Source of the DNA: Phycisphaerae bacterium
GTDB lineage: Bacteria; Planctomycetota; Phycisphaerae; Phycisphaerales; UBA1924
Direction of reading: 5' to 3'
DNA: 64,000 nucleotides
NCBI GenBank assembly: GCA_030426395.1
Contig: JAUHYE010000004.1
Coordinates: forward strand, 1-64,000
In this document: one piece after another, positions 22,615 through 62,216 of the stretch
Layout: the number at the start of each line of letters is the position of its first letter
How positions within the stretch are numbered: position 1 is the stretch's first letter
Program-made: the position numbers and the translations under genes
Notes under the pieces: model-generated
Seen by the model: the letters and a program-made list of their open reading frames with translations, nothing else
The model's database searches: none
Told to the model about the DNA's origin: nothing

Positions 22615-25600
22615 ATGGCGAGCACGACGACCGCGCGATTCGCGCGCCCGTGGAAGTTGTTCCTTTCCGCCGGCCTGGCGGTTGGCCTGGCGGCCGGCAC
22701 GGCCCACGCAACGCCGGAGTGCCCGGCGGACATCGACGGCGACGGCGCCCTGACGCTGTTCGACTTCCTGGAATTCCAGAACCTGTTCGACGCGGGCGAT
22801 CTGGCGGCCGACTTCGACGGTGATGGCGATCTGACGCTGTTCGACTTCCTGGAGTTCCAGAACCAGTTCGACGCCGGCTGCGACGAGGCGGGCGCAATCG
22901 AGACCGAACTGGCCGCCATCACGGTGAGCGGCTACCCGTTCTCGAGCCATGTCGACGCGTTCAACAACGGCAGCCAGGTCCGCATCGCGATCGATCCGGG
23001 CCAGTTCCCCAGCGTTGCTGGCGTGACGGCCGATGTGTACGTCGTGGCGAACAAGTCGCAGGCCGAGTGGGATGCCGACCCGGCGCTCATGGACGTGCGC
23101 GGCGGCGGCGCTCAGTCGATTGCCTTCACGGCCGGCACGATCCAGGACAACACCTTCCTACTGGACGGCTCAACCACGCTGGCCGGGCCCGCGGGCGACG
23201 ACATCGCCGGGGTGTACGACCTGGTGGTGGACCTCGACGGCGATGGCGAACTGTCCGACGGCGACTTGATCGACGGCCGGGGTGATCTGGGTGGTTTCGC
23301 GATCTTCAAGAATCTCACCGCGCTCGGCCCGTACGCGACCGCCCCGGCGCTCGACTACGCGGTGTCATGGCCCGGCATCATCTCATCACGCGATCGCCAG
23401 ATCACGGTGTATCCGGAGAACATCGCCGACCTGCCTCCGCTGCCGCTGATCGTCATCAGCCACGGCAACGGCCACCAGTACGTCTGGTACGACTTCCTGC
23501 AGCAGCACCTTGCCTCGCACGGCTTCGTGGTGATGTGCAACGAGAACGACACGCAGCCGGGCATCGAAACGGCCTCCACCAGCACGTACCTGCACACCGA
23601 CGCGTTCCTGGGCTCGCTGGACACCATCGGCGGCGGCGTGCTGCAGGGGCAGATCGATACCAGCCGCATCATGTGGATCGGCCACAGCCGCGGCGGCGAG
23701 GGCGTGGCCCGTGCCTACACCCGCGTGCGTGACGGCCTGGTGACCACCGAGAACTACGACGCCGACGACATCACGCTGGTGTCGAGCATCGCCCCCAACA
23801 ACTCGCTTGGCTCGGGTAATACCGAGCCGGGATTGGTGAACTACCACCTGCTGTGGGGTTCGGCCGACGGTGATATTTCCGGCGCGCCTTCGGCGGGCGT
23901 GAGCTCGTTCGCGATCCACGATCGCGCCGTCGGCAACCGCTACAGCACCTACCTGCACGGAGCCGACCACAACGACTTCAACTGCTGCGGCTTCAACGAC
24001 TTCAGCGGCCCTCCGGGCACCGAGATTGGCCGGGCCGAGGCCCAGCGCGTGCAGGAGGCCGTGTACCTGGTGCTGGCCAAGCTGCACAACGAGGAGAGCA
24101 TCGGCGGGCGTATGGCGGCCGAGTATTTGTGGCGTCAGGCCGAGAGCCTGGAGTCGCAGAGCGTGAGCCAGACGACCGTGGTGGTGCGTGAGTATCGCGA
24201 GACCACCGACGGCGACGATTTCTACATCGACGACTTCCAGACCAACCCGGCGATCGACCAGAGCAGCTCTGGCGGCTCGGTGATGTTCAGCGTGAGCAAC
24301 GCGGCCGAGGTGCTCCAGAGCGACTCGGACGGCTCGTATAGCTGGACGGGCAGCCAGCCCAGCAACGGCATGACCCGGGCGACGAGCGGCGACGATTCGC
24401 GCGGCCTGGTCTTCGACTGGACCAGTGATAGCTTCATCGAGTTCTCGGTCATTCCCGGCGAGCGTGACTGGACCGACGACTTCTTCCTGAGCTTCCGTGC
24501 CGCGCAAGGCACTCGACACCCGCAGACGGCCGCCGCGCTGGGCGACCTGAACTTCACCGTCTCGCTTCGCGACGGCGCGGGCACGACCAGTTCGATCAAC
24601 ACCGGCGTCTACGGCGGCGGCGTCGAGGAGCCCTACCAGCGCACCGGCGCGGGCTCGGGCGCGGGCTGGCAGAACGAGTACGAGACCATCCGAATCCGTC
24701 TGAGCGACTTCCTGGTCAACGGCAGCGGGCTTGACCTGGGCGACATCGAGGCCGTCCGCTTCGATTTCGGCCCCAGCTTCGGGTCGGCCGTCGGGCGTCT
24801 GGGTCTGGACGACCTGTACGTCAACAACAACCGCGCCCCGTTGGGCATCGACTTCGACATCGAGAGCGTGCTGCCGGACATCGCCGCGCCGGGCGAGGAG
24901 GTTTCGTTCCTGGTCGAGGTGAAGGCCAAGGACGGCGAGGCGCTCGTGGGCGGCTCGGAAGTGCTGCGGTACCGCTTCGATGGCGGCACGTTCATCGACG
25001 TGCCGCTTGTGAGCATGGGTGAGGATCTCTACGAGGCCACCATCCCCGCGGCGGCTTGCGGAGACAACCCCGAGTTCTACCTGGCGGCCGAGGGCACGGC
25101 GAGCGGTGAGGTCGTGTTCCCGCCGACGGCGCCCGATGACGTCTTCGGCTACACCGTGGCGAACCAGACCTTCATTGCCGACCTCGACTTCGAGACGGCG
25201 GTGGGCTGGACGTTCGAGAACATCGAGATCACCGACGGCGCCTGGGACCGCGGCGTGCCCGCGGCCTGGGGTCGCGGCGACCCCAACGCCGACTTCGACG
25301 GCTCGGGCCAGTGCTTCCTGACCGACAACGACACGACCCAGTCGAACTCGGACGTGGACGGCGGGCCGACGATCCTGATCTCGCCGGTGTACGACCTGAG
25401 TTCTGCACCTGGGGCGCAGCTCAGCTACGCCCGGTGGTTCACCAACGACGACCTGGATGTTGATTCCATGGATGTCGAGGTCTCGAACAACGGCGGCTTG
25501 TCGTGGACGCTCATCGAGACCACGGGTGACGCCGCGGGGTGGAACAAGATGACCTGGAACATCAGCGACTTCGTGCCGCTGACGAGCCAGATGCAGTTCC

Positions 25601-36156: not shown

Positions 36157-36221
36157 GTGTGCGGGGTGCAACCCCGGCACCTCTGTCTTGTACAATCGGA
36201 GAGATCAAAGGGAGAAGAGGT

Positions 36222-36866
36222 ATGAGAAGTCACTTGTGGATTGGAATATGTATGTTTTCGGTTGTCGGACTAGCCGCAGCGGGCGTCAGGGCGTCAACCG
36301 ATGTGCTGAGATACACAGGCATCGAGGTACATGAGGGAGCGATCGACGGAATCGATCTAGCCGGGCAGATCGCGACGGTTGAGATCGAGTTCGCGTCTGG
36401 CCTGGTGGCCTCCGACGAAACGTATAAACTGGGGAGTCTCATCTCAGCGCGTTATGAATTCTCGGACGCGGGCTTGTATGTTGTCGACAATCCACAGGAC
36501 ACACTGGAATTTGGCAACGTTAACGATTTCGACCTGTCATTCTTCGATTCCACCCTCGACCTACGTATGCTGAGCGGCGCTACGGCTGGTGATCAGCCGG
36601 GTTTTGATCCGCTCGATGGCGAGACGCTCGGGGAGTTCTTCCGCAGGTGGGGCGACGGCCACACGATCGATTTTACGTCATCGACCAACTTCCAGATGCT
36701 CAACATTTCGATCGGGGGGCTCAACGGTGGAGCGTCCTTCGTGACGATGGACATCGTGGGGCTGGGGCAAAGCGACGTGACGTTGACCTATGTGCCCGCA
36801 CCCTCGACAGGTGTGCTGCTTTGTGCTGGCTTGTACGTGCTGGGGCGCCGCCGTCGAGATCGTTAA
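36222..36866 (+). CDS. secreted protein with PEP-CTERM-like C-terminal sorting signal
   Basis: SD GGGAGAAGAGG before ATG 36222; signal peptide MRSHLWIGICMFSVVGLAAAGVRA; C-terminus VPAPSTGVLLCAGLYVLGRRRRDR (VPxP + TM + Arg cluster). Confidence 0.8.
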   Translation: MRSHLWIGICMFSVVGLAAAGVRASTDVLRYTGIEVHEGAIDGIDLAGQIATVEIEFASGLVASDETYKLGSLISARYEFSDAGLYVVDNPQDTLEFGNVNDFDLSFFDSTLDLRMLSGATAGDQPGFDPLDGETLGEFFRRWGDGHTIDFTSSTNFQMLNISIGGLNGGASFVTMDIVGLGQSDVTLTYVPAPSTGVLLCAGLYVLGRRRRDR

Positions 36867-36910
36867 GCACGTTACCACCTCAGAGCGTACTCACGCGGCG
36901 AAGACCTTGA

Positions 36911-37369
36911 CTATTCACACCCCGCGTCGAACTCGTTCTGGAACATTAGGAAATCGAAGATGGTGAGCGCGCCGTCGCCGTCCAGTTCGGCCCTGCAACT
37001 CACCATGTCGCGCCCGAAGACGACGCAACTCGAGCCGGCGTTCGTGCGGCCGCCCGGATCGGCCAACACGGCCCCGATGATCAGGTCGTCGATGCCGTCG
37101 CCATTGACGTCACCCGCCGAGGCCACCGAGCGGCCGCTGTGGTCGTCCGCGTCGGTGCCCTCGAGTCGAAAGCCGATGGCCCCGTCCAGGTCGGCCAGTT
37201 CGAGCACGGCGGGGAAGGGATCGCTGAGCGGGCCCTGGGCCAGGGCCGACGGTGCGAGCGTCGCCACGAGACCAACGTGCACGAGACCAACGGGCGCCGC
37301 CATCGGCAGGCCCGCAACAACAAGGAGCGCGGCCCGCCGGCCGTGCCCGGTGCTCTGTGCCAAACGCAT
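36911..37369 (-). CDS. small secreted protein with one FG-GAP-like repeat and a single-copy dockerin-like tag
   Basis: GGGAGGTCGAG-ATG; signal peptide to APSALAQ; DVNGDGIDDLIIGAVLADPGGRTNAGSSCVVFG; C-terminus CRAELDGDGALTIFDFLMFQNEFDAGCE. Confidence 0.82.
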   Translation of the reverse strand: MRLAQSTGHGRRAALLVVAGLPMAAPVGLVHVGLVATLAPSALAQGPLSDPFPAVLELADLDGAIGFRLEGTDADDHSGRSVASAGDVNGDGIDDLIIGAVLADPGGRTNAGSSCVVFGRDMVSCRAELDGDGALTIFDFLMFQNEFDAGCE

Positions 37370-37580
37370 CTCGACCTCCCCTGCCCCGGCGGCACGCCGG
37401 GCCGGGCCCAAGATACCGGAAACGAGCGGGCGTGTCAAGAACGATGGGCCGGGGATGGGTGGATTCGGCGGTCATCGGCCGGCGGGCCGCGGGAGGCGGG
37501 GTTCTGGGACCACCGGCGTCGGACCAGCCCCCATCGCAGCCGCGAAGGCCACGCCCGGGACCGCCCGGCCCGCTCCCATC

Positions 37581-37832
37581 GTTCCCCGAGTCTCTCGGGG
37601 CGTTTCATGAGCGATTCCCGTCGTTCCCCGAGCCTCTCGGGGCGTTCGGGGGGCGATGTCGGGCGTTCCGGAGGGCTCTTGAGCCGTTCCCAGAGCCATC
37701 CCGGGCATTCCGAAAGCCTCTCCGGGCGTTCCCAGATCTGTTTCGGGCGTTCCCGAATCCTCCCGGAGCGCTCCCGGAACCATCTTGGGAACGCCCGAAA
37801 CCATTCCGGGCGTTCCCGAAACCATTTTGGGA
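37581..37832. repeat. Array 1: 12 degenerate tandem units, exact 21-bp period
   Basis: Consecutive 21-mers include gttccccgagtctctcggggc, gttccccgagcctctcggggc, gttcggggggcgatgtcgggc, gttccggagggctcttgagcc, gttcccagagccatcccgggc, attccgaaagcctctccgggc, gttcccagatctgtttcgggc, gttcccgaatcctcccggagc, gctcccggaaccatcttggga, acgcccgaaaccattccgggc, gttcccgaaaccattttggga; internal dyads (CCCCGAG-tct-CTCGGGG). Confidence 0.93.
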
Positions 37833-37977
37833 GGAATAGCCGCGACGGACGAACCGCCCTCACGCCGTGCCAGGGCGGATTTTCAGGGTTATCACGGTCG
37901 GGGTTTGATAGAAAAGGCCCCGGACCGATATCCGGGTTTTGGATGGATTCTCCTGGGCGGCCCGTGCGGCGGGTTTC

Positions 37978-39375
37978 TCAGGAGCAACCCGCGTCGAACT
38001 CGGTCTGGAACGCCAGGAAGTCGAAGATTGTGAGGCTGCCGTCCCCGTCGAAATCGGCGATCGGGTCGCCCGCGTCGAAGGCGTTCTGGAAGGCCAGGAA
38101 GTCGAAGAGGGTCAGCTCGCCGTCGCCGTCCAGGTCGGCCCGGCAGTCGCCAACGGGGCCTCGGTACGCCCGGATGTCCGAGCCGACGCCGGCGATGATC
38201 AGCGTGCCGCCCTGGCCGATCGCGGGCCCGCCGATGTTGATGTTGCGCACGGGGACGCTCCAGCGTTCTTCCAGGCTCGAGTCGAAGCTGAAGAACCGGC
38301 CGGTGGCGAACTCGCCGTTGCTGACGTAGAGGTTGCCGTCGCGATCGCTGGCCATGCGCGGGCTGCCGGCGCCGCCATCGAGCGGCGGGCTCGAGCCGAT
38401 GACGTCGCCGGTGGCCGGGTCGATCTTCATGATGGCATAATCGCGGTCGATGGCGTAGACCGATCCATCGGGGCCGACCGTGAACTCGCTGGTGGTGGTC
38501 CACCCGGCCTCGACGCGCCAGCGGACGGTGATGTCCGGGCCGTTGTCGTCCAGCGCGTAGAAGTGGTCGACCGCTGGGTTGTTCTGGGTGCGCTGGACGT
38601 AGATGGTGCCGTCGGGCCCGATCATGGGCGTGGTCTGCACGGTGAAGCCTTCCATGAGCTCGCTCTCGACCTCGAACGCGCCGGTGGCCAGGTCGAAGCG
38701 CTTGACGCGGTGCCCGCCCACGGCCGCGTCGATGACGTAGACCTTGCCGTCATAGATGGCGCCGCCGCACGTGCCGCTGACCGAGCAGGAGCGATCGGCG
38801 GCCCACACGAGGCTTCCCGTTTCGGCGTCGAAGCGCTTGATGGTGCGAAAGTCGGCGGCGATGATGTCGCCGTCGTCGGCGAAGACCGCGCCGTCGTAGG
38901 CGCCCATCGTGGTCTCTTCGGTGCTGAACCACAGCGTGTCGCCCGTTGCGGCGTCGAGCGCATAAATCGGCGCCGACACGCTCGAACCGTTGCCCGCGCG
39001 AGAGGCGTACACGCGACCGTCCCTGACGCCCAGCACGGTGGTGGTCCAGTGGTCGGGGTCGGCTGGGATGTTGCGGAACCACAGCTCGTCGCCCGTGTCC
39101 AGGTCCATCGCGACGACGGGGCTGCGGTCGCTCTCGGGCGGGAAGGCCGACTGGCGCACCATGAACACGCGCCGGCCCTCGATCACCGGCTGCCAGGCGA
39201 TGATGCTGGTGCGGCCACCGTCCCAGAGGATGTCTGGGGAAGCCGGGCCAACTTCGCTCGTCTGGCCGTTGCGTTGGGCGTTGCCGCCCGAGTTGCTCCA
39301 GTCTTGTGCCAGGGCCGGCATCGCCAGGCCGCAGGCGAGCAAGGCCGAAACGGGCGCATGGATAGCGTGGTGCAT
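37978..39375 (-). CDS. secreted PQQ-like beta-propeller protein with C-terminal dockerin-like tag
   Basis: GGAGGAGGAACACG-ATG; signal peptide ...LACGLAMPALAQ; propeller repeats (VVAMDLDTGDELWFRNI, IYALDAATGDTLWFS); C-terminus CRADLDGDGELTLFDFLAFQNAFDAGDPIADFDGDGSLTIFDFLAFQTEFDAGCS. Confidence 0.9.
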   Translation of the reverse strand: MHHAIHAPVSALLACGLAMPALAQDWSNSGGNAQRNGQTSEVGPASPDILWDGGRTSIIAWQPVIEGRRVFMVRQSAFPPESDRSPVVAMDLDTGDELWFRNIPADPDHWTTTVLGVRDGRVYASRAGNGSSVSAPIYALDAATGDTLWFSTEETTMGAYDGAVFADDGDIIAADFRTIKRFDAETGSLVWAADRSCSVSGTCGGAIYDGKVYVIDAAVGGHRVKRFDLATGAFEVESELMEGFTVQTTPMIGPDGTIYVQRTQNNPAVDHFYALDDNGPDITVRWRVEAGWTTTSEFTVGPDGSVYAIDRDYAIMKIDPATGDVIGSSPPLDGGAGSPRMASDRDGNLYVSNGEFATGRFFSFDSSLEERWSVPVRNINIGGPAIGQGGTLIIAGVGSDIRAYRGPVGDCRADLDGDGELTLFDFLAFQNAFDAGDPIADFDGDGSLTIFDFLAFQTEFDAGCS

Positions 39376-39446: not shown

Positions 39447-40220
39447 TTACTCGCAGCCCGCGTCGAATTCGTTCTGGAACGCGAGGAAGTCGAAGATCGT
39501 GAGCGAGCCGTCGCCGTCGAAGTCGGCGAGCGGATCGCCCGCGTCGAACGCGTTCTGGAATGCGAGGAAGTCGAAGAGGGTCAGCTCGCCGTCGCCGTCG
39601 AGGTCGACGCGGCAGGCCACGCCGATGACCAGTTCCAGTTGCGGGTGCAGGGTCTCGTCGGAGAACTCCAGGCTGCGGAAGTAGCCGTAGCGCGAGGCGC
39701 CGGCGCCGAACTCGGTGAGCTGGGCGACGGCGAAGCCGTTGTTGGGCGCCCCCGCGGCGATGGCGCGGACGAGTTCGGTCACGTCGTAGTCGAGCCAGCC
39801 GACCGAGCCGCTGGCGCCGACGCGGCGGCTCTCGTTGCCGGCGCGGTCGCCGTTCTCGGGCCTGGTGTCCCACGTCACCGTGCCGGCGTCCCAATCGCTC
39901 AGGAGCGCGAACACGTCGTCGCCCAAGCCGCCGGCGGCGGGCTCGGTGCGGTGCTGGTACACACGCAGCGTGGCGCTCTCGATGGCGTCGGGCTCGATCA
40001 CGTCGCTCAGGTCGAACTTCAGGTAGATCCGGCCGAAGCCAAGCCCCCAGAAGCTGCCCTTGCCCGCGGCCAATTCCTCGGCCGAGCCGAAGTTCGTCGC
40101 GGGCTGGCTGCTCTCGACGTAGGTGTCTTCGGTGGCCAGGCGGATCTCCTGGGCGGCGGCGGGGCTCGCGCTCAGGCCGGCGGCCAGCAGCGTGGCGGTG
40201 ATCGCGGGAACGGGCTTCAT
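39447..40220 (-). CDS. secreted DNRLRE-type (carbohydrate-binding-like) protein with C-terminal dockerin-like tag
   Basis: MKPVPAITATLLAAGLSASPAAAQEIRLATEDTYVESSQPATNFGSAEELAAGKG...RIYLKFDLSDVI..ATLRVYQ; C-terminus CRVDLDGDGELTLFDFLAFQNAFDAGDPLADFDGDGSLTIFDFLAFQNEFDAGCE. Confidence 0.9.
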   Translation of the reverse strand: MKPVPAITATLLAAGLSASPAAAQEIRLATEDTYVESSQPATNFGSAEELAAGKGSFWGLGFGRIYLKFDLSDVIEPDAIESATLRVYQHRTEPAAGGLGDDVFALLSDWDAGTVTWDTRPENGDRAGNESRRVGASGSVGWLDYDVTELVRAIAAGAPNNGFAVAQLTEFGAGASRYGYFRSLEFSDETLHPQLELVIGVACRVDLDGDGELTLFDFLAFQNAFDAGDPLADFDGDGSLTIFDFLAFQNEFDAGCE

Positions 40221-44724: not shown

Positions 44725-45444
44725 TCACGCCGTCGCCTTCTTCTCTGCCCCCTTCACCGGCACCACGCTGCCCGCATCTTTGCCAACGAAGCCGGACTTC
44801 TGGCTGCCGAATGGCACCTCGCAGGTGATGCTCCAGTCGCTCATGAGCCCCGTGCTCAGGCGCACCGCCACGCGGTAGCCCACGCTCTTGAGCCCCTCGG
44901 GCACGGCCCGGTCGGTGAAGGCCTTGTCGTCGCCGGCGAAGCCGATGAACTCGTAGGGGTCGCGCCGCCCGCCGAGCGCGGTCGTCACGCGCTGCACCAG
45001 GTACAGCGCCCCGCCTCCCGAGGCGACCTTGAAGGACAGGCGCACCGAGCCGTCGCTGGCGATGGCGGCGCGCAGGTCGGTCGGGCGCGGCGGCGCTGTG
45101 CGCACGCTGGCGTCCTTGGGCGCGGGCACCTGGGCCTTCACCCACACGCCGGGGTCTCGGGTGGACAGTGCGAACGCGTCGATGGTCGCCACGTCGGCCC
45201 CCATGACGCTGCGCAATCTGGCCACGGCGTTGTTCTTCGCTTCGGTCGCCGCCTTGGCCGCGCTGCGGGCCGCGAGCATCGCCTGGTACGCCGCGTGGGC
45301 CTGGGCGCTGGCCTCCAGCGCCTCGAGCCGCTGCTGCTCGTCCAGGCCGATCACGGGCGGTTGCCCCTCCCCACCAGACCAGAGGTCGGCGCGGTGGCGC
45401 GACCAGGCGATGAAGGCGGCTTCGGGCTTGGGGGCTCGTGGCAT
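44725..45444 (-). CDS. hypothetical protein, helical N-terminus plus Fn3-like C-terminus; paralogue of 61152..61868
   Basis: MPRAPKPEAAFIAWSRHRADLW...MGADVATIDAFALSTRDPGVWVKA...YLVQRV...DPYEFIGFAGDDKAFTDRAVPEGLKSVGYRVAV; lies downstream (transcriptionally) of array 2. Confidence 0.75.
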   Translation of the reverse strand: MPRAPKPEAAFIAWSRHRADLWSGGEGQPPVIGLDEQQRLEALEASAQAHAAYQAMLAARSAAKAATEAKNNAVARLRSVMGADVATIDAFALSTRDPGVWVKAQVPAPKDASVRTAPPRPTDLRAAIASDGSVRLSFKVASGGGALYLVQRVTTALGGRRDPYEFIGFAGDDKAFTDRAVPEGLKSVGYRVAVRLSTGLMSDWSITCEVPFGSQKSGFVGKDAGSVVPVKGAEKKATA

Positions 45445-45553
45445 ACGTCTGCTCCGCAGCGGTCTGCTTCGCAGGGGGATGGCCCGGCACCGTGCCGGGA
45501 GCACCCTCCGCACGGGATGTATCGAACCGGCCGAGGGCCGACTTGAGCGCGGG

Positions 45554-45784
45554 TTGCCGGGAACTTCGGAACGCCCGCCGGGGGGCTTGGGAGCCGTTCC
45601 GGGGAGCTGGGAAGCCGTTCCGAAGAGCTGGGAAGGCCTTCCGAGATGCTGGGAAGGGGTTCCGAAGGGCTCGGAACGGCTGCCGAGGGGCTGGGAATGG
45701 CTTCGGCGGAGCTTGGAACGGCCCGCGAGGGGCGTGGCGGGCGTGTCAGGGCGTTCGCGGGCCGTTCGAGAGGTTTCCAGAGGC
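45554..45784. repeat. Array 2: 11 degenerate tandem units, exact 21-bp period
   Basis: ccgccggggggcttgggagcc, gttccggggagctgggaagcc, gttccgaagagctgggaaggc, cttccgagatgctgggaaggg, gttccgaagggctcggaacgg, ctgccgaggggctgggaatgg, cttcggcggagcttggaacgg, etc.; perfect dyad GTTCCGA-agggc-TCGGAAC at 45659-45677. Confidence 0.92.
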
Positions 45785-45801: not shown

Positions 45802-48294
45802 TCAGCCGCAGCCCGCGTCGAAGCGGTTCTGGAACACCAGGAAGTCGAAGATGGTGAGCCGGCCGTCCTCGTCCAGGTCCGCCCGCAGGTCGCCAGCGTC
45901 GAAGAGGTTCTGGAAGGCCAGGAAATCGAAGATGGTCAGCTCCCCATCGGCATCGCGATCGGCGGCGCAGATCACGACGATGACCGAGTCGCCGGTGTAG
46001 ACGATGTGGGCCGGGCCGATAGCGCCCACCGGCTCGATGTCGATGTCGGCAAAGAAGCCGTCGACCGCCGAGCCGGTGATGACCTCGAACTGGTCGAGTG
46101 GCTCGGGGATGTAGCCATCAACGAAGTCGACGTCCAGGGCACCATCAATCGTGATCGGCGAGCGCGTGGCGAATCGATCGAACTGGTCGAGGCCCGTGCC
46201 GGCCGCGTCGATCTCGGTCCGGGCGGTGGGGCCGAAGGTCAACGCAGCGCGGCCGAACGACTCAATGACGTTCACCCCGTCCCCGACGCCGGGCGCGAGT
46301 GTGCCCTCGATGCGGTACTCGCCTTCGATGCGTCCACGCCCGCTGATCGTGCACTCGGGCCCGAACGTCGGCGTGTCGCCGGCACCCGGACGCACGATCT
46401 GAGCCGTTGCGGTGTCGCCCGGCCGGCTGTTGAGCGTGACGTCGATGCTGATGGTTGCGCCATCGAGCACGCGGAACTCGGACACCGCGTCGCCGGCTTC
46501 GGTGTTGACGAGCATGGAAGCATCTCCGTCGATGACACCGCCGAAGTTGACCTGCCCGCCGTTGGGCAGGCCCCATGGGCCGTTCATGGCCGCGTCCAGG
46601 ATCGTGCCACGCCGGTCGGATGTCACGAGCCCGCCGGTGCCAACGCCATGCCACGTGCCGCCGGTGATCTGCGTTTCTTGGAAGATGCCGAAGGTGCCGC
46701 CGTCAATGCCGCGCATGACGCCACCGTCCTGCGTGATGTTGGAACCGAAGGTCTGGATGAGGTCGTCAGTCTCGATGGCGCCCTGCGCGACGAACGCGCC
46801 CGCCAGGCGGCCGCGTCCGCTGATGGTGGTGCCGGGCCCGAACGTCGGGGTGTCGCCGGCGCCTGGACGCACGATCTGCGCCGTCGCGGTGTCGCCCGGC
46901 CGGCTATTGAGCACAACGTCGATGCCGATGGTCGCGCCATCGAGCACGCGAAACTCGCTGGTTATGTCGCCGGCGATCGTGTTCACCGTCACGACGCCAT
47001 CGCCGGTGACCGTGCCGCCGAAGTTGACCTGCCCGCCCGCGGGCAGCCCCCACGGACCGTTCATGATCGCGTCGACGATCGTGCCGCGCCGATCGGAGTT
47101 CACGAGCCCGCCGGTCCCGAGCGCCTCCCAGGTGCCGCCTGTCACGAGCGACTCTTGGAACAGTCCGAACTCGCCCCCGTCGACGCCGCGCATGATGCCA
47201 CCGTCCTGCGTGATGTTGGTATTGAAGGTCTGGATGAGGTCGTCGGTCTCGATGGTGCCCTGCGCGATGAAAGCGCCCGCCAGGCGGCCGCGCCCGCGGA
47301 TGGTGCTGTTGGGGCCGAACGTCGGCGTGTCGCCGGCGCCCGGACGCACGATCTGCGCCGTCGCGGTGTCGCCCGCCCGGCTGTTGAGCACGACGTCGAT
47401 GTCGATCATGGCGCCATCGAGCGTGCGGAATTCACTGGTGATGTCGCCGGCGGTCGTGTTCACCGTCACGACGCCATCGCCGGTGATCGCGCCGCCGAAG
47501 TTGACTTGCCCGCCGTTGGGCAGGCCCCAGTCGCCGGCCATCGTCGCGTCGATGATCGAGCCGCGACGGTCGGAGGTGACCAGCCCGCCGGTCCCAAGGG
47601 CCTCCCAGGTGCCGCCCGTCACGATCGACTCTTGGAACAATCCGAACTCGCCCCCGTCGACGCCGCGCACGATGCCGCCGTCCTGCGTGATGGTCGTGTT
47701 GAACGTCCGGATGAGTGCGTCGGTCTCGATCACGCCCTGGTTGGTGTACGCACCGATGATCCGACCGCGTCCGCTGATGGTGCTGTTGGGCCCGAACGTC
47801 GGCGCGTCGCCAGCGCCGATCCGGTTGATCTGCGCCGTGGCCGCGTCGCCCGGTCGGCTGTTCAACCGCACGTCGGCATCGATCACCGCGGCATCGGGCA
47901 CGCGCAGGAGCGCGGTGGAATCGCTCGCCGTCCGGTTGATGAGCAGGGTGCCCGCCCCCTCGTAGCGATCGAGTGCCAGGCTGGCCCCGCCGGCGACCGC
48001 GGCGATGATCTCCAGCTGCGTGATGTCCAGGGCCGCGATCGTGCGCGGGGCGTTGATGTCCACCACGTACGTGCCAATGCCGCTCAGCCTGGCCGTGTCG
48101 AGCGCGCCGGGCACGACCGCGGGGAACCAGTTCGGGGCCACGCCGAAGTCGCCATCGACCGGGCTGGCCCACTCGATCGTGGCCTGGGCGTGGGCCAATG
48201 GCGTGAGCATCGCGAGCCCTGCCGCGGCGGCAATGGCCAGGGGCGTGCGCGAACGGATAGCGGGGGTGATGGGGGTGGTGGGGGTCTGGGGCAT
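45802..48294 (-). CDS. secreted autotransporter-like/beta-helical repeat protein with C-terminal dockerin-like tag
   Basis: Signal peptide (AIAAAAGLAMLTPLAHAQATIEW); ~159-aa near-identical repeats; C-terminus CAADRDADGELTIFDFLAFQNLFDAGDLRADLDEDGRLTIFDFLVFQNRFDAGCG. Confidence 0.9.
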   Translation of the reverse strand: MPQTPTTPITPAIRSRTPLAIAAAAGLAMLTPLAHAQATIEWASPVDGDFGVAPNWFPAVVPGALDTARLSGIGTYVVDINAPRTIAALDITQLEIIAAVAGGASLALDRYEGAGTLLINRTASDSTALLRVPDAAVIDADVRLNSRPGDAATAQINRIGAGDAPTFGPNSTISGRGRIIGAYTNQGVIETDALIRTFNTTITQDGGIVRGVDGGEFGLFQESIVTGGTWEALGTGGLVTSDRRGSIIDATMAGDWGLPNGGQVNFGGAITGDGVVTVNTTAGDITSEFRTLDGAMIDIDVVLNSRAGDTATAQIVRPGAGDTPTFGPNSTIRGRGRLAGAFIAQGTIETDDLIQTFNTNITQDGGIMRGVDGGEFGLFQESLVTGGTWEALGTGGLVNSDRRGTIVDAIMNGPWGLPAGGQVNFGGTVTGDGVVTVNTIAGDITSEFRVLDGATIGIDVVLNSRPGDTATAQIVRPGAGDTPTFGPGTTISGRGRLAGAFVAQGAIETDDLIQTFGSNITQDGGVMRGIDGGTFGIFQETQITGGTWHGVGTGGLVTSDRRGTILDAAMNGPWGLPNGGQVNFGGVIDGDASMLVNTEAGDAVSEFRVLDGATISIDVTLNSRPGDTATAQIVRPGAGDTPTFGPECTISGRGRIEGEYRIEGTLAPGVGDGVNVIESFGRAALTFGPTARTEIDAAGTGLDQFDRFATRSPITIDGALDVDFVDGYIPEPLDQFEVITGSAVDGFFADIDIEPVGAIGPAHIVYTGDSVIVVICAADRDADGELTIFDFLAFQNLFDAGDLRADLDEDGRLTIFDFLVFQNRFDAGCG
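46400..47880 (-). repeat. intragenic tandem repeat, 477-bp (159-aa) period, ~3 copies plus partial
   Basis: ggtgtcgcccgg(c)ccggct recurs at 46411, 46888 and 47365 (477-bp spacing), with a diverged copy near 47842; translated copies SRxGDTATAQIVRPGAGDTPTFGP...DVVLN. Confidence 0.93.
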
Positions 48295-54078: not shown

Positions 54079-55467
54079 ATGGCACACGCAATCGAAGGGA
54101 GACTACCCGTGTTTCACAGCAAGCAAACGATTCGCAATGGGGCGCTTGGCGCCATGGTACTTCTCGCAACGGCCGGCAGCGCAATGGCGCAGGATCCCGG
54201 ACTGAGCATGAGCCTCGACCGCTCCAGCATCAACTCGGGCGAGTCGGTGCAGGTCGAGCTCTTCGGCCGCTTCCCCAGCACCGGCTTCGCGATGGCCGAG
54301 GCCGACTTCGACGTGTTCGCGTCCGTCGACGCGTGGACGATGGCCAGCAGCGGCTTCATGGCGGGCCACGCCGTGTGGAACGCCAGCTTCGATCAGACGC
54401 ACATGCCCAGCGCGGGCATTTTCGCCGACCCAACCAACCCGTTGCCAATCTGGAGCGGCACCTTCCAGCCCAACGTCGCGGGTCCGGCCCTTCTGCGCCT
54501 GCGGGCCGTGGCCGACAATTTCGCCTACTACCCCAGCGACCTGACCAGCTCGGCGGCCGTTGTCAACAACCCGTTGCCCGGCCGCCAGTACCTGTGGGTC
54601 GATCCGTTCGCGATCCCCGGCGTCGGTGAAGTCGCCCCAGGCGAGGGCACCGGCATGGATGTGCTGCCCGATGGCTCGGTCATCGCGACGCCGAGCGACG
54701 ATCAGGCGATCCTCATCGGCTTACTGCTGCCGGCCATCCAGAAGGTGCGCGAATCGTCGGTGCGCATGGACATGCGCGCCCAGCCCGAGCGTGCGAGTGT
54801 GAAGCTGCAACTCGCGTGCGCCCAGGGCACGTACTACCCCATTGAACAACTCGCGCTAAACTTCTCGAAGGTCGAGGATCCCGATACAGGCGAGATCATG
54901 TACGAGCTGACCAGCGAGGGAGGCATGAGCCACTACACCCTCATCTGCCTGATCGGTCCGCACGGCGAGCTGATCTGCGGACCCTCGGCACTCACCGCAG
55001 GCGGCGCCACGAGCGCCCCGATCGCCCGCTTCGACCGCATCCCAGGATGCCTGACGTTCACCATCGAGCAGGACGACGTGACTGGCGAGGACGTGCTGGG
55101 CATCAGCCCCTGCGACGACGAGCCGTTGTTTGTCGAGATCCCCGGCGTGCACAAGGGCCTGACCACCGGACCGGTCCAGATCCGCGCCTATCCCGAGTAC
55201 TTCAAGCTCGACGGGCTTGATGGCGAGTCCGTTGCCCTTGAGGGCCTGCCTGACGGTCGCGAGGGCCAAGTGACCTTCGAGTTCTCGCACACCGTCGAGT
55301 GCGAGGCCGACTTCGACGGCGACGGCGCCCTGACCATCTTCGATTTCCTGGCCTTCCAGAACGCCTTCGATCGCGGCCTGCGGAGCGCCGACTTCAACGG
55401 CGACGGCCAGCTCAACCTCTTTGATTTCCTGGCGTTCCAGAACGCGTTCGACCGCGGGTGCCGCTAA
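54079..55467 (+). CDS. secreted protein with C-terminal dockerin-like tag and embedded pilin-like motif
   Basis: Signal peptide ending ATAGSAMAQ; internal [24 protein letters not shown]; C-terminus [55 protein letters not shown]. Confidence 0.87.
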   Translation: [462 protein letters not shown]

Positions 55468-56604: not shown

Positions 56605-59070
56605 ATGCTCAATATACGCAACTGGCAGCGTCGTTCGTGGCATTCATATTCGATGATCCTGGCCGCGGTCATGGCGGTGTTCGGGTGGGTATTGCCCGCC
56701 AGCGGGCAGGGATGCGACCCGACGTGGGCCGAAGACGTCTTCGGGCTGCCGGGCGTCAATCGCGACGTCCACGCCATGACGACCTGGGACGACGGCCGGG
56801 GCGAAGCCCTCTACATCTGCGGCAACTTTGACACGGTCGGCTCGGTCGAAGCCAGCAACATCGCCCGGTGGGACGGCGAGAAGTGGGAGCCCCTTGGCGG
56901 CGGTACGAGCCTGTTCACCTACGCCATGTGCGCATTCGACGACGGCACGGGCGAGAAGCTGTACGCAGGCGGCAACTTCTATGGCGCGGGCGGGGCTTCG
57001 GTGAACAACATCGCCCGCTGGACCGGGGACGCATGGGAGCGTGTGGGCGCGGGCTTCTTCGGCGGGGTCGATTCGTTGGTGGTGTACGACGACGGCTCGG
57101 GCCCGGCGCTCTACGCCGGGGGCAATCTCAACCGCTCCACCGGCGGGGCCTACTCGCTCAAGGGCGTAGCCCGCTGGGACGGCGCCAACTGGAACCCGGT
57201 GGGCGTCGGGCTGGGGCTGTACTCCGTCGACGTGAGATCCATGGTCGTCTTCGATGACGGCACCGGCCCGGCGTTGTACGCGGCGGGCGACTTTGGCATC
57301 CTCGGCGACCGCCGCATCGCCAACCACATCGCCAAGTGGGACGGCGTCTCGTGGGAGCCGCTCGAAGGCCCCGGCGGCATCGGGCTCGACGACACCGCGT
57401 TTACGCTGGAGGTCTACGACGACGGCAGGGGCGAGGCGCTCTATGTCGGCGGGCGCTTCCAGCATGCCGGCGGCGTTCCGGCGCGCGGGGTGGCCCGGTG
57501 GGATGGCTCCACGTGGTCGGGCCTGGACGATGGCTTCGAGGGCGTGGCGCTCGACATGCGGGTGCACGACGATGGCTCGGGCCCGGCCCTGTTCGTCGGC
57601 GGGCGGCTGGCTTCCAGCGGCGAGCCCGTGGAGTCGGTGGCCAAGTGGGACGGCGAGCGATGGATCGCCCTGGACGCGCGCATGGACGAGCGTGTGGACG
57701 CGATGGCGGTCTACGACGACGGCTCGGGCGAGAAGCTCTTCGTGGGTGGTCGATTCGAGACTGCCGGCGACGCCTTCGTGGGTGCGCTGGCGGCCTGGGA
57801 CGGCGCCGACTGGTCTCCCGTGGCGGCGCCCGGCCAGGGCGCGGGCATGGACAACGACGTGCGCGTGCTGGCCACCCACGACGACGGAACGGGCAGGGCG
57901 CTGTACGCGGGCGGCTTCTTCGAGTACGCCGGCGGCGTGCTGGCCAACCACGTCGCGCGATGGGACGGTCTGCGGTGGTCGGCGTTGGGGCAGGGCCTCG
58001 ACGCGGGCGCTGTCGCCCTGGCGAGCTTCGACGACGGCTCGGGCCCGGCCCTGTTCGCCGGGGGCTACTTCACCACTGCCGGCGGCCAGCCCGCCCGCGG
58101 CGTGGCACGGTGGGACGGAACGGACTGGTCGGCGGTGGGCACGGGCGAGGGCTTCGATGGGCTGGTCAGCGCTCTGGCGGTCTTCGACGACGGCACGGGC
58201 CCGGCGCTCTACGCCGGCGGCGACTTCCTGCGCGTCGATGGCCGCACCGCCAAGCACGTGGCGCGCTGGGATGGATCCGCGTGGACTCCCGTGGGCAGCG
58301 GCGTTCCGGCGGAAGTCTTCTGCCTGCACGTCTTCGACGACGGCAAGGGCCCGGCCCTGTACGCGGGCGGGGACGACTTCACGCGGCCGGGCGTGCCCAA
58401 CAACTGCGTGTTGAAGTGGGACGGGCGGGGATGGTCGCGACTGTCGACGCCGCTGAACGGCGAGGCGTATGCCATGGCGACCTACGACGACGGACGCGGG
58501 CCGGCGTTGTACATCGTGGGCAACCTTGGCGTCTTCGGCGTTCCCGCGACACGCAGCGTGGTGCGGTGGGACGGTGCCCGCTTCGAGGCCCTGGGCGCCG
58601 GCCTGGCCAACATCGCCTACGCCGTGGAGGTCTTCGATGCCGCCGACGGCCGGGGCCCGGGCCTGGTCGTTGGCGGGCGATTCTCGGGCATGTACGGCGG
58701 GCCGGGCGACTACGTGGCCCGCTGGGATGGGCGGGCATGGCGGCCGATGGATACCGGCATGGACGGCTCGACGCCCACGGTCTACGCGCTGCGCGCCCAC
58801 GACGACGGCTCGGGCCGGGCGCTCTTTGCCGGCGGGCGATTCGCCAGCGCGGGCGGGCACGCCGCCAGCCGCATCGCGCGCTACGGCTGCCCCGCGCCCG
58901 CGTGCCCGCCCGACCTGGACGGCGACGGCGAGCTGACGGTCATCGACTACCTCGTGTTCCAGCTGTACTTCGACGCCGGCGACGCGCGGGCCGACTTTGA
59001 CCGCGATGGCGACCTGACGCTGTTCGACTTCCTGGTGTTCCAGAACGCGTTCGATGCCGGTTGCCCGTGA
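56605..59070 (+). CDS. secreted ~50-aa-repeat (beta-propeller-like) protein with C-terminal dockerin-like tag
   Basis: Signal peptide; ~15 repeats of the type VYDDGSGPALYAGGxFxxAGGxxAxxVARWDGxxWxxLG; C-terminus CPPDLDGDGELTVIDYLVFQLYFDAGDARADFDRDGDLTLFDFLVFQNAFDAGCP. Confidence 0.92.
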   Translation: MLNIRNWQRRSWHSYSMILAAVMAVFGWVLPASGQGCDPTWAEDVFGLPGVNRDVHAMTTWDDGRGEALYICGNFDTVGSVEASNIARWDGEKWEPLGGGTSLFTYAMCAFDDGTGEKLYAGGNFYGAGGASVNNIARWTGDAWERVGAGFFGGVDSLVVYDDGSGPALYAGGNLNRSTGGAYSLKGVARWDGANWNPVGVGLGLYSVDVRSMVVFDDGTGPALYAAGDFGILGDRRIANHIAKWDGVSWEPLEGPGGIGLDDTAFTLEVYDDGRGEALYVGGRFQHAGGVPARGVARWDGSTWSGLDDGFEGVALDMRVHDDGSGPALFVGGRLASSGEPVESVAKWDGERWIALDARMDERVDAMAVYDDGSGEKLFVGGRFETAGDAFVGALAAWDGADWSPVAAPGQGAGMDNDVRVLATHDDGTGRALYAGGFFEYAGGVLANHVARWDGLRWSALGQGLDAGAVALASFDDGSGPALFAGGYFTTAGGQPARGVARWDGTDWSAVGTGEGFDGLVSALAVFDDGTGPALYAGGDFLRVDGRTAKHVARWDGSAWTPVGSGVPAEVFCLHVFDDGKGPALYAGGDDFTRPGVPNNCVLKWDGRGWSRLSTPLNGEAYAMATYDDGRGPALYIVGNLGVFGVPATRSVVRWDGARFEALGAGLANIAYAVEVFDAADGRGPGLVVGGRFSGMYGGPGDYVARWDGRAWRPMDTGMDGSTPTVYALRAHDDGSGRALFAGGRFASAGGHAASRIARYGCPAPACPPDLDGDGELTVIDYLVFQLYFDAGDARADFDRDGDLTLFDFLVFQNAFDAGCP

Positions 59071-59091: not shown

Positions 59092-60501
59092 TCAGCACCC
59101 CGCGTCGAACGCGTTCTGGAAGCACAGGAAGTCGAACAGGGTGAGCGCGCCGTCCCCGTCGCAGTCGGCCTGCATGCTCCCCGTATCGAACGCGTTCTGG
59201 AAGGCCAGGAAGTCGAAGATGGTGAGCGCCCCGTCGCCGTCGAAGTCGGCGTAGCACGGCACGCTCGCGTCCGGGTCGGTGGCCATCGTCACCAGCACGG
59301 TGGCGGGCACCTCGGCGCGGCGCTCGAAGCCGCCGGTCGCGTCCACGAGGTTGATGTCGGTCAGGATGGTCAGCACCGGCGTCACGCGCTGGGCCAACTG
59401 CTCGGGAGAGAGCCCCTCGCCGAACCAGCCGCCCTCCACGAACCGATCGGCCCAGGGCGAGCTGCGCTCGTCCGGATGCAGCGTGTCGGCCACCCACAGG
59501 CTGGTGAACGCCGCGGCATTGTCCAGTAAAGCGCCCGCCAGCGTCGTGCGCATCGTCAGCGTGCCGAGCTGCCCGCCGACGGCGACCTCGGCGTTGTCCA
59601 CGCCGGCCACGAAGAGCGTGCCGCCACGGAACACGTGCGCGCCGGTCGTGGGATCGACGCCGCCGTACTCGAGCTCGATCGCGTCGGGCAAAGCCCCCAC
59701 CAGCGGATCATCGGCGAACTCGGGGGCGACGGCGCCCGTGCGCCCGCCGTCCTGGTCGAGCACGTCGATGGCGCCAAGGCGCAGCGTCAGCGTGCGCGCG
59801 GCGGGGTCGTAGGCGGCCATCGTGCCCGTGCGCGGCGTGGCCCCCAGCGTCGCGTGGTCGCGGCCCAGGCCCTCGCTCGAGACGTGCGCATCCAGGTGGC
59901 CGGCCTCGACCGTGAAGGGCCCGGACACCATCGCCGTCACGTCGGGCTCGGGGTTGAGCACGGCGTGGGCGTGCATGGTCGCGCGATACCAATCCATATG
60001 GTCGCCGTGGTTCTGCACGCCCGAGGCGGAGATCTTCCGCGTGGGCAGCGTGAAGCTGGTCAGGAAGGGGATGTCGACGCCGCGGGCGTTGGCGACCTCG
60101 GGCAGGGCGTTCCAGCCCTCGCCGTGCGGCGGGTCCCAGTGGTCGCCGCTCAGGTACAGCCGGGCGCGGTCGGCGCCGCGGCGGTCCCGCCCTTCCAGGT
60201 CCACGTAGTCCCAGTCGGTGACGTCCATGCTCAGCGAGAATCCCCAGTGGACGGCGCCGGGAATCCGGAATCGCGTGAAGACGCTGACGATGCCAGGGGA
60301 GCGGTCGTCGTCCTTGAACTCGGCCCAGCCGCTGGCCTCGAAGCTCGACTGCGAGTCGACGTTGATCTGGAAGAGCGAGCCCACGCCCTCGTCGGCCGGC
60401 GCGTGGCCGGCGGCCAGGAGCAGGGCGGCGGCGCCGCCCAGCGTCAGCGAGCGGGCGGAAGAGCGGGTCGAAAGGAAAACGGTGCGCGGCGTGCGTGCCA
60501 T
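59092..60501 (-). CDS. secreted protein with C-terminal dockerin-like tag
   Basis: MARTPRTVFLSTRSSARSLTLGGAAALLLAAGHAPADEG signal; C-terminus CYADFDGDGALTIFDFLAFQNAFDTGSMQADCDGDGALTLFDFLCFQNAFDAGC. Confidence 0.87.
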   Translation of the reverse strand: MARTPRTVFLSTRSSARSLTLGGAAALLLAAGHAPADEGVGSLFQINVDSQSSFEASGWAEFKDDDRSPGIVSVFTRFRIPGAVHWGFSLSMDVTDWDYVDLEGRDRRGADRARLYLSGDHWDPPHGEGWNALPEVANARGVDIPFLTSFTLPTRKISASGVQNHGDHMDWYRATMHAHAVLNPEPDVTAMVSGPFTVEAGHLDAHVSSEGLGRDHATLGATPRTGTMAAYDPAARTLTLRLGAIDVLDQDGGRTGAVAPEFADDPLVGALPDAIELEYGGVDPTTGAHVFRGGTLFVAGVDNAEVAVGGQLGTLTMRTTLAGALLDNAAAFTSLWVADTLHPDERSSPWADRFVEGGWFGEGLSPEQLAQRVTPVLTILTDINLVDATGGFERRAEVPATVLVTMATDPDASVPCYADFDGDGALTIFDFLAFQNAFDTGSMQADCDGDGALTLFDFLCFQNAFDAGC

Positions 60502-60649: not shown

Positions 60650-61180
60650 ATGTCCCGCCTCTCCGCCCACGCCGGCACGCGCCGCAAGGTCCAGATCGAG
60701 CGCAACCGCCCGAGCAACCGCCTGATCAACGGCTACGTGCTCCACTGCGAGGGCGGCTTGGCCCTCGTCCATCAATTCGATGACTTCGAGCCCGACGGCT
60801 ACGCCATCATCCGCGAACGCGACATCGTGTCGGTGAGGCAGGGCGAATACGAAGCCTTCTGGGATCGCATGCTCGAGAGCGAAGGCCTGCTGGGCGGGTT
60901 GGACGAAGCGCCGAAGATCGACCTGGGCAGCATGGCCGCGGGCATCCAATCGGCGGCGGCCTTGCACCCCTTCCTGGCGATCGAGTGCGAGGACGAGGAC
61001 GAGCCCATCCAGGACTTTTACTTTGCCAAGGCGATGTCCATCACCGAAACGCACGTGCACCTGCGTTGCGTCGATGGGCTTGGCCGATGGGAAGAGCCCG
61101 ACCCCGTCCCCCTCGAAGACATCACGATGGTCCAGATGGACACGCCCTACCTCACGCGCTTCGCGCGCTATGTGCGGTGA
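60650..61180 (+). CDS. hypothetical protein
   Basis: 176 aa; RLINGYVLHCEGGLALVHQFDDFEPDGYAIIRERDIVSVRQGEYEAFWDRML... coherent cytosolic composition. Confidence 0.65.
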   Translation: MSRLSAHAGTRRKVQIERNRPSNRLINGYVLHCEGGLALVHQFDDFEPDGYAIIRERDIVSVRQGEYEAFWDRMLESEGLLGGLDEAPKIDLGSMAAGIQSAAALHPFLAIECEDEDEPIQDFYFAKAMSITETHVHLRCVDGLGRWEEPDPVPLEDITMVQMDTPYLTRFARYVR

Positions 61181-61868
61181 TGGCCGTTCCGGCCCCCGCG
61201 TCCACCTTCCACTTCTCTCCATGCAGCGACGCCCCGGTGGAAAAGCCGTGGGCCGTGCGGCCGTTCTTGGTGGCGTTGACAATGTACTCCACGCTGGTGG
61301 TCCCCGGCGGGATTGTCGTGTCCACGAAGCGCCGCTCGCCAACGGCGGCGAGGAAGTGGTAGAACGGTTCCTGGACGCCCTCGCGGGTCAGGCGGCGCTC
61401 GACGCGGTAGATCGTCCCCGGGCGCGTGCGGCCCTTCCAGGTCAGCACCATCGCGCCCTCGCTCACGACGAATCGCAGCCGCGGGGCGTAGGGGGCCACC
61501 GGGTGCTGCGGCGAGCCCTTCTTGCGCGACGTCAATCGGGCCCGCGCGAAGACGCCCGGGTCGCGCGTGGCCTTGGCGTACGCGTCGATCGTCGAGATGT
61601 CGGCCCCGATCTCGGCCCTGAACCGCTTGAACGCCTCGCGCTTGCGCAGCGTGGCCGCCCGGGCCAGCGATTGGATCGCCAGCTGGTGCGTGTGCGCCGC
61701 GTAGGCCGCCTCGAACAGCTCGACCGCCCTCTGGGCCTGCTGCTCGCTGAGGCCGATGTCGGGCACGCCCGTGCTGCCGCCCCCGGGCTGCCAGCCGCTC
61801 CACACGCGGGTGATGGTGCGGGCCCAGGCCAGGAAGCGGCCGTCTTGTCGTGGATAGCGGACGGGCAT
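61152..61868 (-). CDS. hypothetical protein, helical N-terminus plus Fn3-like C-terminus; paralogue of 44725..45444
   Basis: MPVRYPRQDGRFLAWARTITRVWSG...IGADISTIDAYAKATRDPGVFARA...YRVERRLTREGVQEPFYHFLAAVGERRFVDTTIPPGTTSVEYIVNA; array 3 lies just upstream. Confidence 0.75.
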   Translation of the reverse strand: MPVRYPRQDGRFLAWARTITRVWSGWQPGGGSTGVPDIGLSEQQAQRAVELFEAAYAAHTHQLAIQSLARAATLRKREAFKRFRAEIGADISTIDAYAKATRDPGVFARARLTSRKKGSPQHPVAPYAPRLRFVVSEGAMVLTWKGRTRPGTIYRVERRLTREGVQEPFYHFLAAVGERRFVDTTIPPGTTSVEYIVNATKNGRTAHGFSTGASLHGEKWKVDAGAGTAITAHSARSA

Positions 61869-62006
61869 GGGTGCGGTGCTCCTCGTGACCGTTAGCGGCC
61901 GGGCGTGCCGGCCGGGGCCCCAACCGGGCGGCCACGCGACCGCCCCGAGCCCGAGCCCCCCTCCCAGCATCGACCCGATGCCCCGCCCACTTGATCGCAC
62001 GCCCCA

Positions 62007-62216
62007 TCCCTCGCGGGCAAGGGGCCGATGCCCGCGGGCCACGCCGCTCTGCCCACGGGCAACGCGGCCTTGCCCGTGGGCAGAACCATTTTGTCCGCGG
62101 GCAAAACCGTTTTGCCCGTGGACACAGCCATGATGCCCACGGACAAGACCGTTCTGCCCACGGGCGGAAGGGCATCGCCCATGGGCGGGGCGGGGTTGGC
62201 CGTGGGGGGTGGGATG
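62007..62216. repeat. Array 3: 10 degenerate tandem units, exact 21-bp period
   Basis: atgcccgcgggccacgccgct, ctgcccacgggcaacgcggcc, ttgcccgtgggcagaaccatt, ttgtccgcgggcaaaaccgtt, ttgcccgtggacacagccatg, atgcccacggacaagaccgtt, ctgcccacgggcggaagggca, tcgcccatgggcggggcgggg; core dyad TGCCCRYGGGCA. Confidence 0.94.

Follow-up and report, generated by a model that had tools for sequence, protein, structure and literature searches.

Tandem arrays of 21-bp dyad units, alike in period but mostly not in sequence, upstream of a fibronectin type III gene family in planctomycetes

Among known systems, one of the closest is the pairing of REP/BIME elements with RAYT transposases. The arrays described here share with it intergenic palindromes that occur both as dispersed copies and beside a dedicated gene family, and in our sample the palindromes are tied to the presence of the partner family, a functional likeness rather than membership. 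However, the arrays are contiguous runs of exact-length units whose sequence differs from array to array, and the partner family, which we call FAM, contains no Y1 tyrosine transposase (no transposase matched in Pfam or NCBIfam) and ends in a fibronectin type III (fn3) domain. Iterons occur few per replicon, have one sequence and accompany an initiator gene. Like them and like tandem operator arrays, the arrays here lie upstream of a gene and consist of direct repeats some two helical turns long, with operator-sized dyads and a period that would fit helix-phased protein binding; unlike iterons, they probably exceed a hundred, mostly have their own sequences and come with no initiator, judging FAM by Pfam. 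CRISPR and TIGR loci also combine a tandem repeat array with a neighbouring protein gene, but our arrays have no spacers and no Cas- or Tas-like gene, their dyad repeats drift gradually, and no Tas guide-RNA-binding domain was found in FAM. Prokaryote satellites are likewise intergenic tandem repeats, and those main-text passages of a survey of them (PMC6749651) that were found describe neither 21-bp dyad arrays nor a link to a gene family. The literature searched gave no description of the array, of the FAM family or of their pairing.

The window is the whole stretch of 64,000 nucleotides analysed, from a Phycisphaerae bacterium (contig JAUHYE010000004.1) whose assembly comprises 3.49 Mb in 186 contigs; its features are listed in Table 1. 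A first-pass annotation had reported array A1 as 12 abutting 21-bp units in a 608-bp intergenic gap, and both the coordinates and the units agree with ours, each unit being exactly 21 bp long; the two palindromes that it quoted are present at 37584-37600 and 37626-37642. Autocorrelation at 21 nt, a check named beforehand, was clear: identity at lag 21 is 0.584, compared with 0.272 ± 0.031 in 1000 dinucleotide shuffles (maximum 0.377), and at lag 42 it is 0.690. The dyad symmetry of the 12 units is 0.619 versus 0.461 for column-permuted units (p=0.001; with looser array bounds, p=0.115), which, together with the lack of spacers, upholds the description of A1 as an array of phased dyads, unlike CRISPR or single REPs. 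Neighbouring units had been thought to be the most alike; in fact second neighbours (0.69) are more similar than first neighbours (0.58), with an A-B-A-B tendency, so the drift is not simply between nearest neighbours.

Table 1. Arrays, neighbouring genes and promoter motifs in the window
Feature	Position	Strand	Description
FG-GAP/dockerin gene	36911..37369	-	Faces A1 with its 5' end; encodes a shortened FG-GAP repeat protein of 152 aa that ends in a GC-type dockerin
Sigma-70-like promoter	37410..37438	-	TTGACA-N17-TATCTT, between A1 and the FG-GAP gene, 10/12 matches
Array A1	37581..37832	.	Units of 21 bp with internal dyads, 12 in a row without spacers; no FAM gene close by
PQQ-like, GC-dockerin gene	37978..39375	-	Stop on the other side of A1
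FAM gene beside A2	44725..45444	-	Helical N-terminus (predicted) and fibronectin type III, 239 aa
Sigma-28/FliA-type motif	45515..45550	-	Between A2 and its FAM gene, score 15.7
Array A2	45570..45740	.	Period-21 dyad array upstream of FAM gene
FAM gene beside A3	61152..61868	-	238 aa
Sigma-28/FliA-type motif	61963..61998	-	Adjoins A3, score 16.0
Array A3	62027..62200	.	Period-21 dyad array upstream of FAM gene

The genes called at 36911-37369 and 37978-39375 flank the gap; there is no FAM gene within 2.5 kb of A1 and no sigma-28 motif at it. The paralogs of the FG-GAP gene that faces A1 are mostly about 560-620 aa long, versus its 152 aa. Among the 14 FG-GAP paralogs with their 5' end in view, an array lies directly upstream in nine, A1's included, a count that is biased because many of the loci were taken for a nearby FAM gene; in five of the nine the array is common to a divergent FAM gene. 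Such divergent pairs sharing one array were seen at loci L301, L302, L303, L309 and L028. A1 is an FG-GAP-linked member of the array class, without a FAM neighbour. The block that holds it (36157-37978) is absent from the relative G003, and a larger block is absent from G005. A gene for a PEP-CTERM-like protein (36159-36866) lies in the same lineage-specific block.

The local array that had been reported is real, but it belongs to a class that is genome-wide and phylum-wide and is tied to FAM. In 657 kb of the genome we found lag 21 at 28 loci, about 26 of them intergenic, and lag 42 at 27 loci; the only other common lag was 81, that of a dockerin-like protein tag. The array density is somewhat inflated, because the first batch included contigs picked for matching A1; the second batch was not so picked. 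Extrapolated from this sample, the genome probably has more than a hundred tandem arrays with a strict period of 21 bp. A typical array has 7-14 units, and arrays, A1, A2 and A3 among them, share the period but mostly not the sequence. Of 528 windows of 42 nt, 527 peak at lag 21, a purity that is partly selection by detection, since indel-rich arrays would fall below the detection threshold. Dyads exceed column-permuted nulls in 35 of 76 arrays (combined p=2e-25), that is, individually in fewer than half, and the W/S composition pattern around the dyad axis is weak. The arrays lie between genes in all orientations, divergent and convergent included.

That 21 is divisible by 3 and that several frames are open would suit translated heptad repeats, and the open frames noted in the first-pass annotation are indeed there, four of six in extended A1. 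They are nothing special, however: the other GC-rich arrays here have one to six open frames, different frames are open in different arrays, and none of 26 arrays varies mainly at one codon position. With no codon signature in these 26 arrays, we regard translated heptads as a highly improbable account of the arrays, and translation of A1 in one frame, which had been named as a refuting observation, is disfavoured by the same lack of codon-position bias.

FAM is a paralogous family of about 220 aa with 68 matches in the genome and no significant match in Pfam or NCBIfam. Its C-terminal part is identified as an fn3 domain by comparison of profiles and folds; the N-terminal part is predicted to be helical by a model of modest confidence (pLDDT 69). 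The proteins are near neutral (median N-terminal charge 0), and none of 80 members showed a hydrophobic stretch like that of a signal peptide. No nuclease, transposase or known DNA-binding domain was found by Pfam, NCBIfam or profile and fold comparison. An array is located within 1 kb upstream of 37 of the 56 FAM copies with enough flank, compared with 21 of 469 other genes of the same genome (p=7e-28); none was found downstream of 55 copies, and control-lag arrays were upstream of none of the 56. These counts depend on calling arrays at a lag identity of 0.65 or more across 63 bases. The other 19 copies have no array, and several of these keep the promoter motif described below. At two FAM loci of G006, periodic DNA was seen downstream of the gene, with lag 14 and 21 at L211 and a lag-21/42 signal at L141. 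About half of the arrays lie just upstream of FAM members and about half are solitary. The solitary arrays resemble particular FAM-linked ones, by E-values that are inflated for self-similar repeats, and no degenerate FAM genes were found beside them; some sit between convergent genes, with no promoter there to regulate.

A de novo EM search of the intervals between arrays and FAM genes found a bipartite motif close to the sigma-28/FliA consensus. In this genome it is present at 32 of the 37 FAM-linked arrays, downstream of the array in 31 of the 32, at a median distance of 92 bp. The weight matrix (PWM) was trained on FAM upstream regions, and its hits before FAM genes are therefore circular. 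Its scores before two flagellin genes of the same genome (15.7 and 14.8) and near a fliA match (15.0), against a background with a median of 1.1 and a 95th percentile of 5.1, are independent support for the candidate motif, and the motif is common to FAM genes and flagellin promoters of one genome. The flagellin and fliA-region sites are at G000:C6, C159 and C183 (L239, L240, L242). The motif also precedes pseudopilin-like genes, with high PWM hits at L037:737-772 and L040:7996-8031. That FAM, flagellin, fliA-region and pseudopilin-like genes share it suggests a single putative regulon.

These positions also bear on the possibility that the array is transcribed, either as a tandem stem-loop non-coding RNA or as a many-hairpin terminator or insulator. 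On either strand the fold of A1 is better than that of shuffles (z -3.8 and -4.0), dyads are common, and many arrays are just 3' of a gene, all as hairpins would have it. Yet the array nearly always precedes the promoter motif, nothing comparable to that motif was found distal to arrays or as a common feature beside solitary ones, arrays are present between divergent genes, and an exact 21-nt period is not required by RNA hairpins. What is more, the dyads show no excess of G-U over A-C in the gene-sense strand, and no Rfam match was obtained in the window at the gathering threshold. We consider a hairpin array distinctly unlikely. A structured RNA known to Rfam is rejected for the window, where no curated covariance model matched at that threshold. 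Compensation within units is weak (0.543 versus about 0.525 for partners one unit away). Taken together, these results favour a DNA-level constraint on spacing and symmetry over coding or gene-sense RNA; the lack of G-U excess and of a codon signature is as expected for an element acting at the DNA level.

To follow the association across the phylum, FAM homologs were sought by two HMM searches in 392 planctomycete genomes. Full-length or N-terminal homologs occur in several planctomycete families, and 14 of the 21 distant FAM loci tested had 21 or 42 as their best upstream lag. The upstream arrays at these distant loci are mutually unrelated in sequence, an example being the GTCAGTATAAAAGATACTGGT units in G100, and loci matching the fn3 part alone have no arrays. 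Genomes without detected FAM yielded no lag-21 or lag-42 arrays in 583 kb, versus the 28 lag-21 loci in 657 kb here. A phage origin was rejected: viral contigs contained no relative, nor did plasmids for a distant homolog.

That FAM proteins act on the arrays in trans, as RAYTs do on REPs, by binding, building or moving them, with each paralog having its own array, would be in keeping with three observations: arrays occur only in those sampled genomes that have FAM, they are found beside FAM genes, and solitary arrays resemble particular FAM-linked ones. On the other hand, the near-neutral charge and the lack of nuclease, transposase and DNA-binding domains do not suit such a role. A Mantel test of array-protein co-evolution gave no overall correlation, array similarity tracking protein similarity only above about 60% identity, where shared descent would explain it equally. 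Action of FAM in trans is in our judgement improbable.

The divergence of the arrays raises the question of whether they are neutral or selfish satellites, formed where short palindromes cause slippage and template switching, merely tolerated between genes, spreading with FAM modules and sometimes left alone. Arrays of orthologs and close paralogs are 60-82% identical with few or no gaps, near the 63-73% of fourfold sites; the A2 ortholog in the genus-mate G006, for instance, is 77% identical over 199 bp with no gaps. In G003 the ortholog of the A3 module keeps gene, array and place, yet the array there has an entirely different sequence. A satellite would also fit the alternation in higher-order units of 42 bp, the recent expansions into nearly identical copies (with lag-42 values as high as 1.0), the resemblance of solitary to FAM-linked arrays and the occurrence of every gene orientation. 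None of the following would be expected of neutral repeats, however: a period of exactly 21 bp nearly everywhere, its recurrence in distant genera whose arrays are unrelated in sequence, a position at FAM genes that is strictly upstream, and absence from the sampled FAM-less genomes. A satellite origin is unlikely on this balance, with an appreciable chance of being right.

Starting from the observed period, dyads, placement, promoter motif and recurrence across the phylum, we tentatively prefer to see the array as a helically phased DNA element whose dyads are bound by a putative dimeric protein and which acts on adjacent promoters, a reading to which we give somewhat less than an even chance. 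The module would consist of the array, then usually a sigma-28-type promoter, then the FAM gene, and at some loci an FG-GAP/dockerin gene reading divergently from the array's opposite side; A1 would serve the FG-GAP side alone. The array would act as double-stranded DNA, with a dimer on each dyad along one helix face, 21.0 bp being about two B-DNA turns, and would probably form a cooperative nucleoprotein patch that sets or insulates the adjacent promoters. The putative phasing by two helical turns, put forward in the first-pass annotation, fits the exact, nearly indel-free period across arrays and species. Selection would keep spacing and symmetry, leaving the sequence of each array free to drift. 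Against the DNA-element reading, the FAM proteins are near neutral and have no known DNA-binding domain that we could find, dyads are significant individually in under half of the arrays, compensation within units is weak, 19 of 56 FAM copies are arrayless, and solitary arrays, some of them between convergent genes, make up about half of the total. It is possible, if doubtful, that period-locked arrays are a new chromosomal element in which only the 21-bp spacing and the dyads are conserved, each being the private address of its flagellar-regulon FAM module across Planctomycetota through a dimeric DNA-binding partner or FAM itself.

Few DNA elements are conserved in geometry but not in sequence; here this pattern marks dozens of FAM copies per genome, with a flagella-type promoter, across a phylum. 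The arrays make it possible to test directly whether a selected signal can consist of spacing and symmetry alone, and they open a way into the function of a large, unannotated family of planctomycete proteins.

The window contains other repeats. A unit of 477 bp is repeated about 3.2 times at 46340-47862, within the gene called at 45802-48294. Duplicated 81-bp units encode a dockerin-like D-x-D-G tag at 22724-22878, 37988-38139 and 39456-39606, the GC-type dockerin having been matched in the gene at 37978-39375, and further duplications of this tag were seen at 55306-55457, 58910-59060 and 59098-59250.
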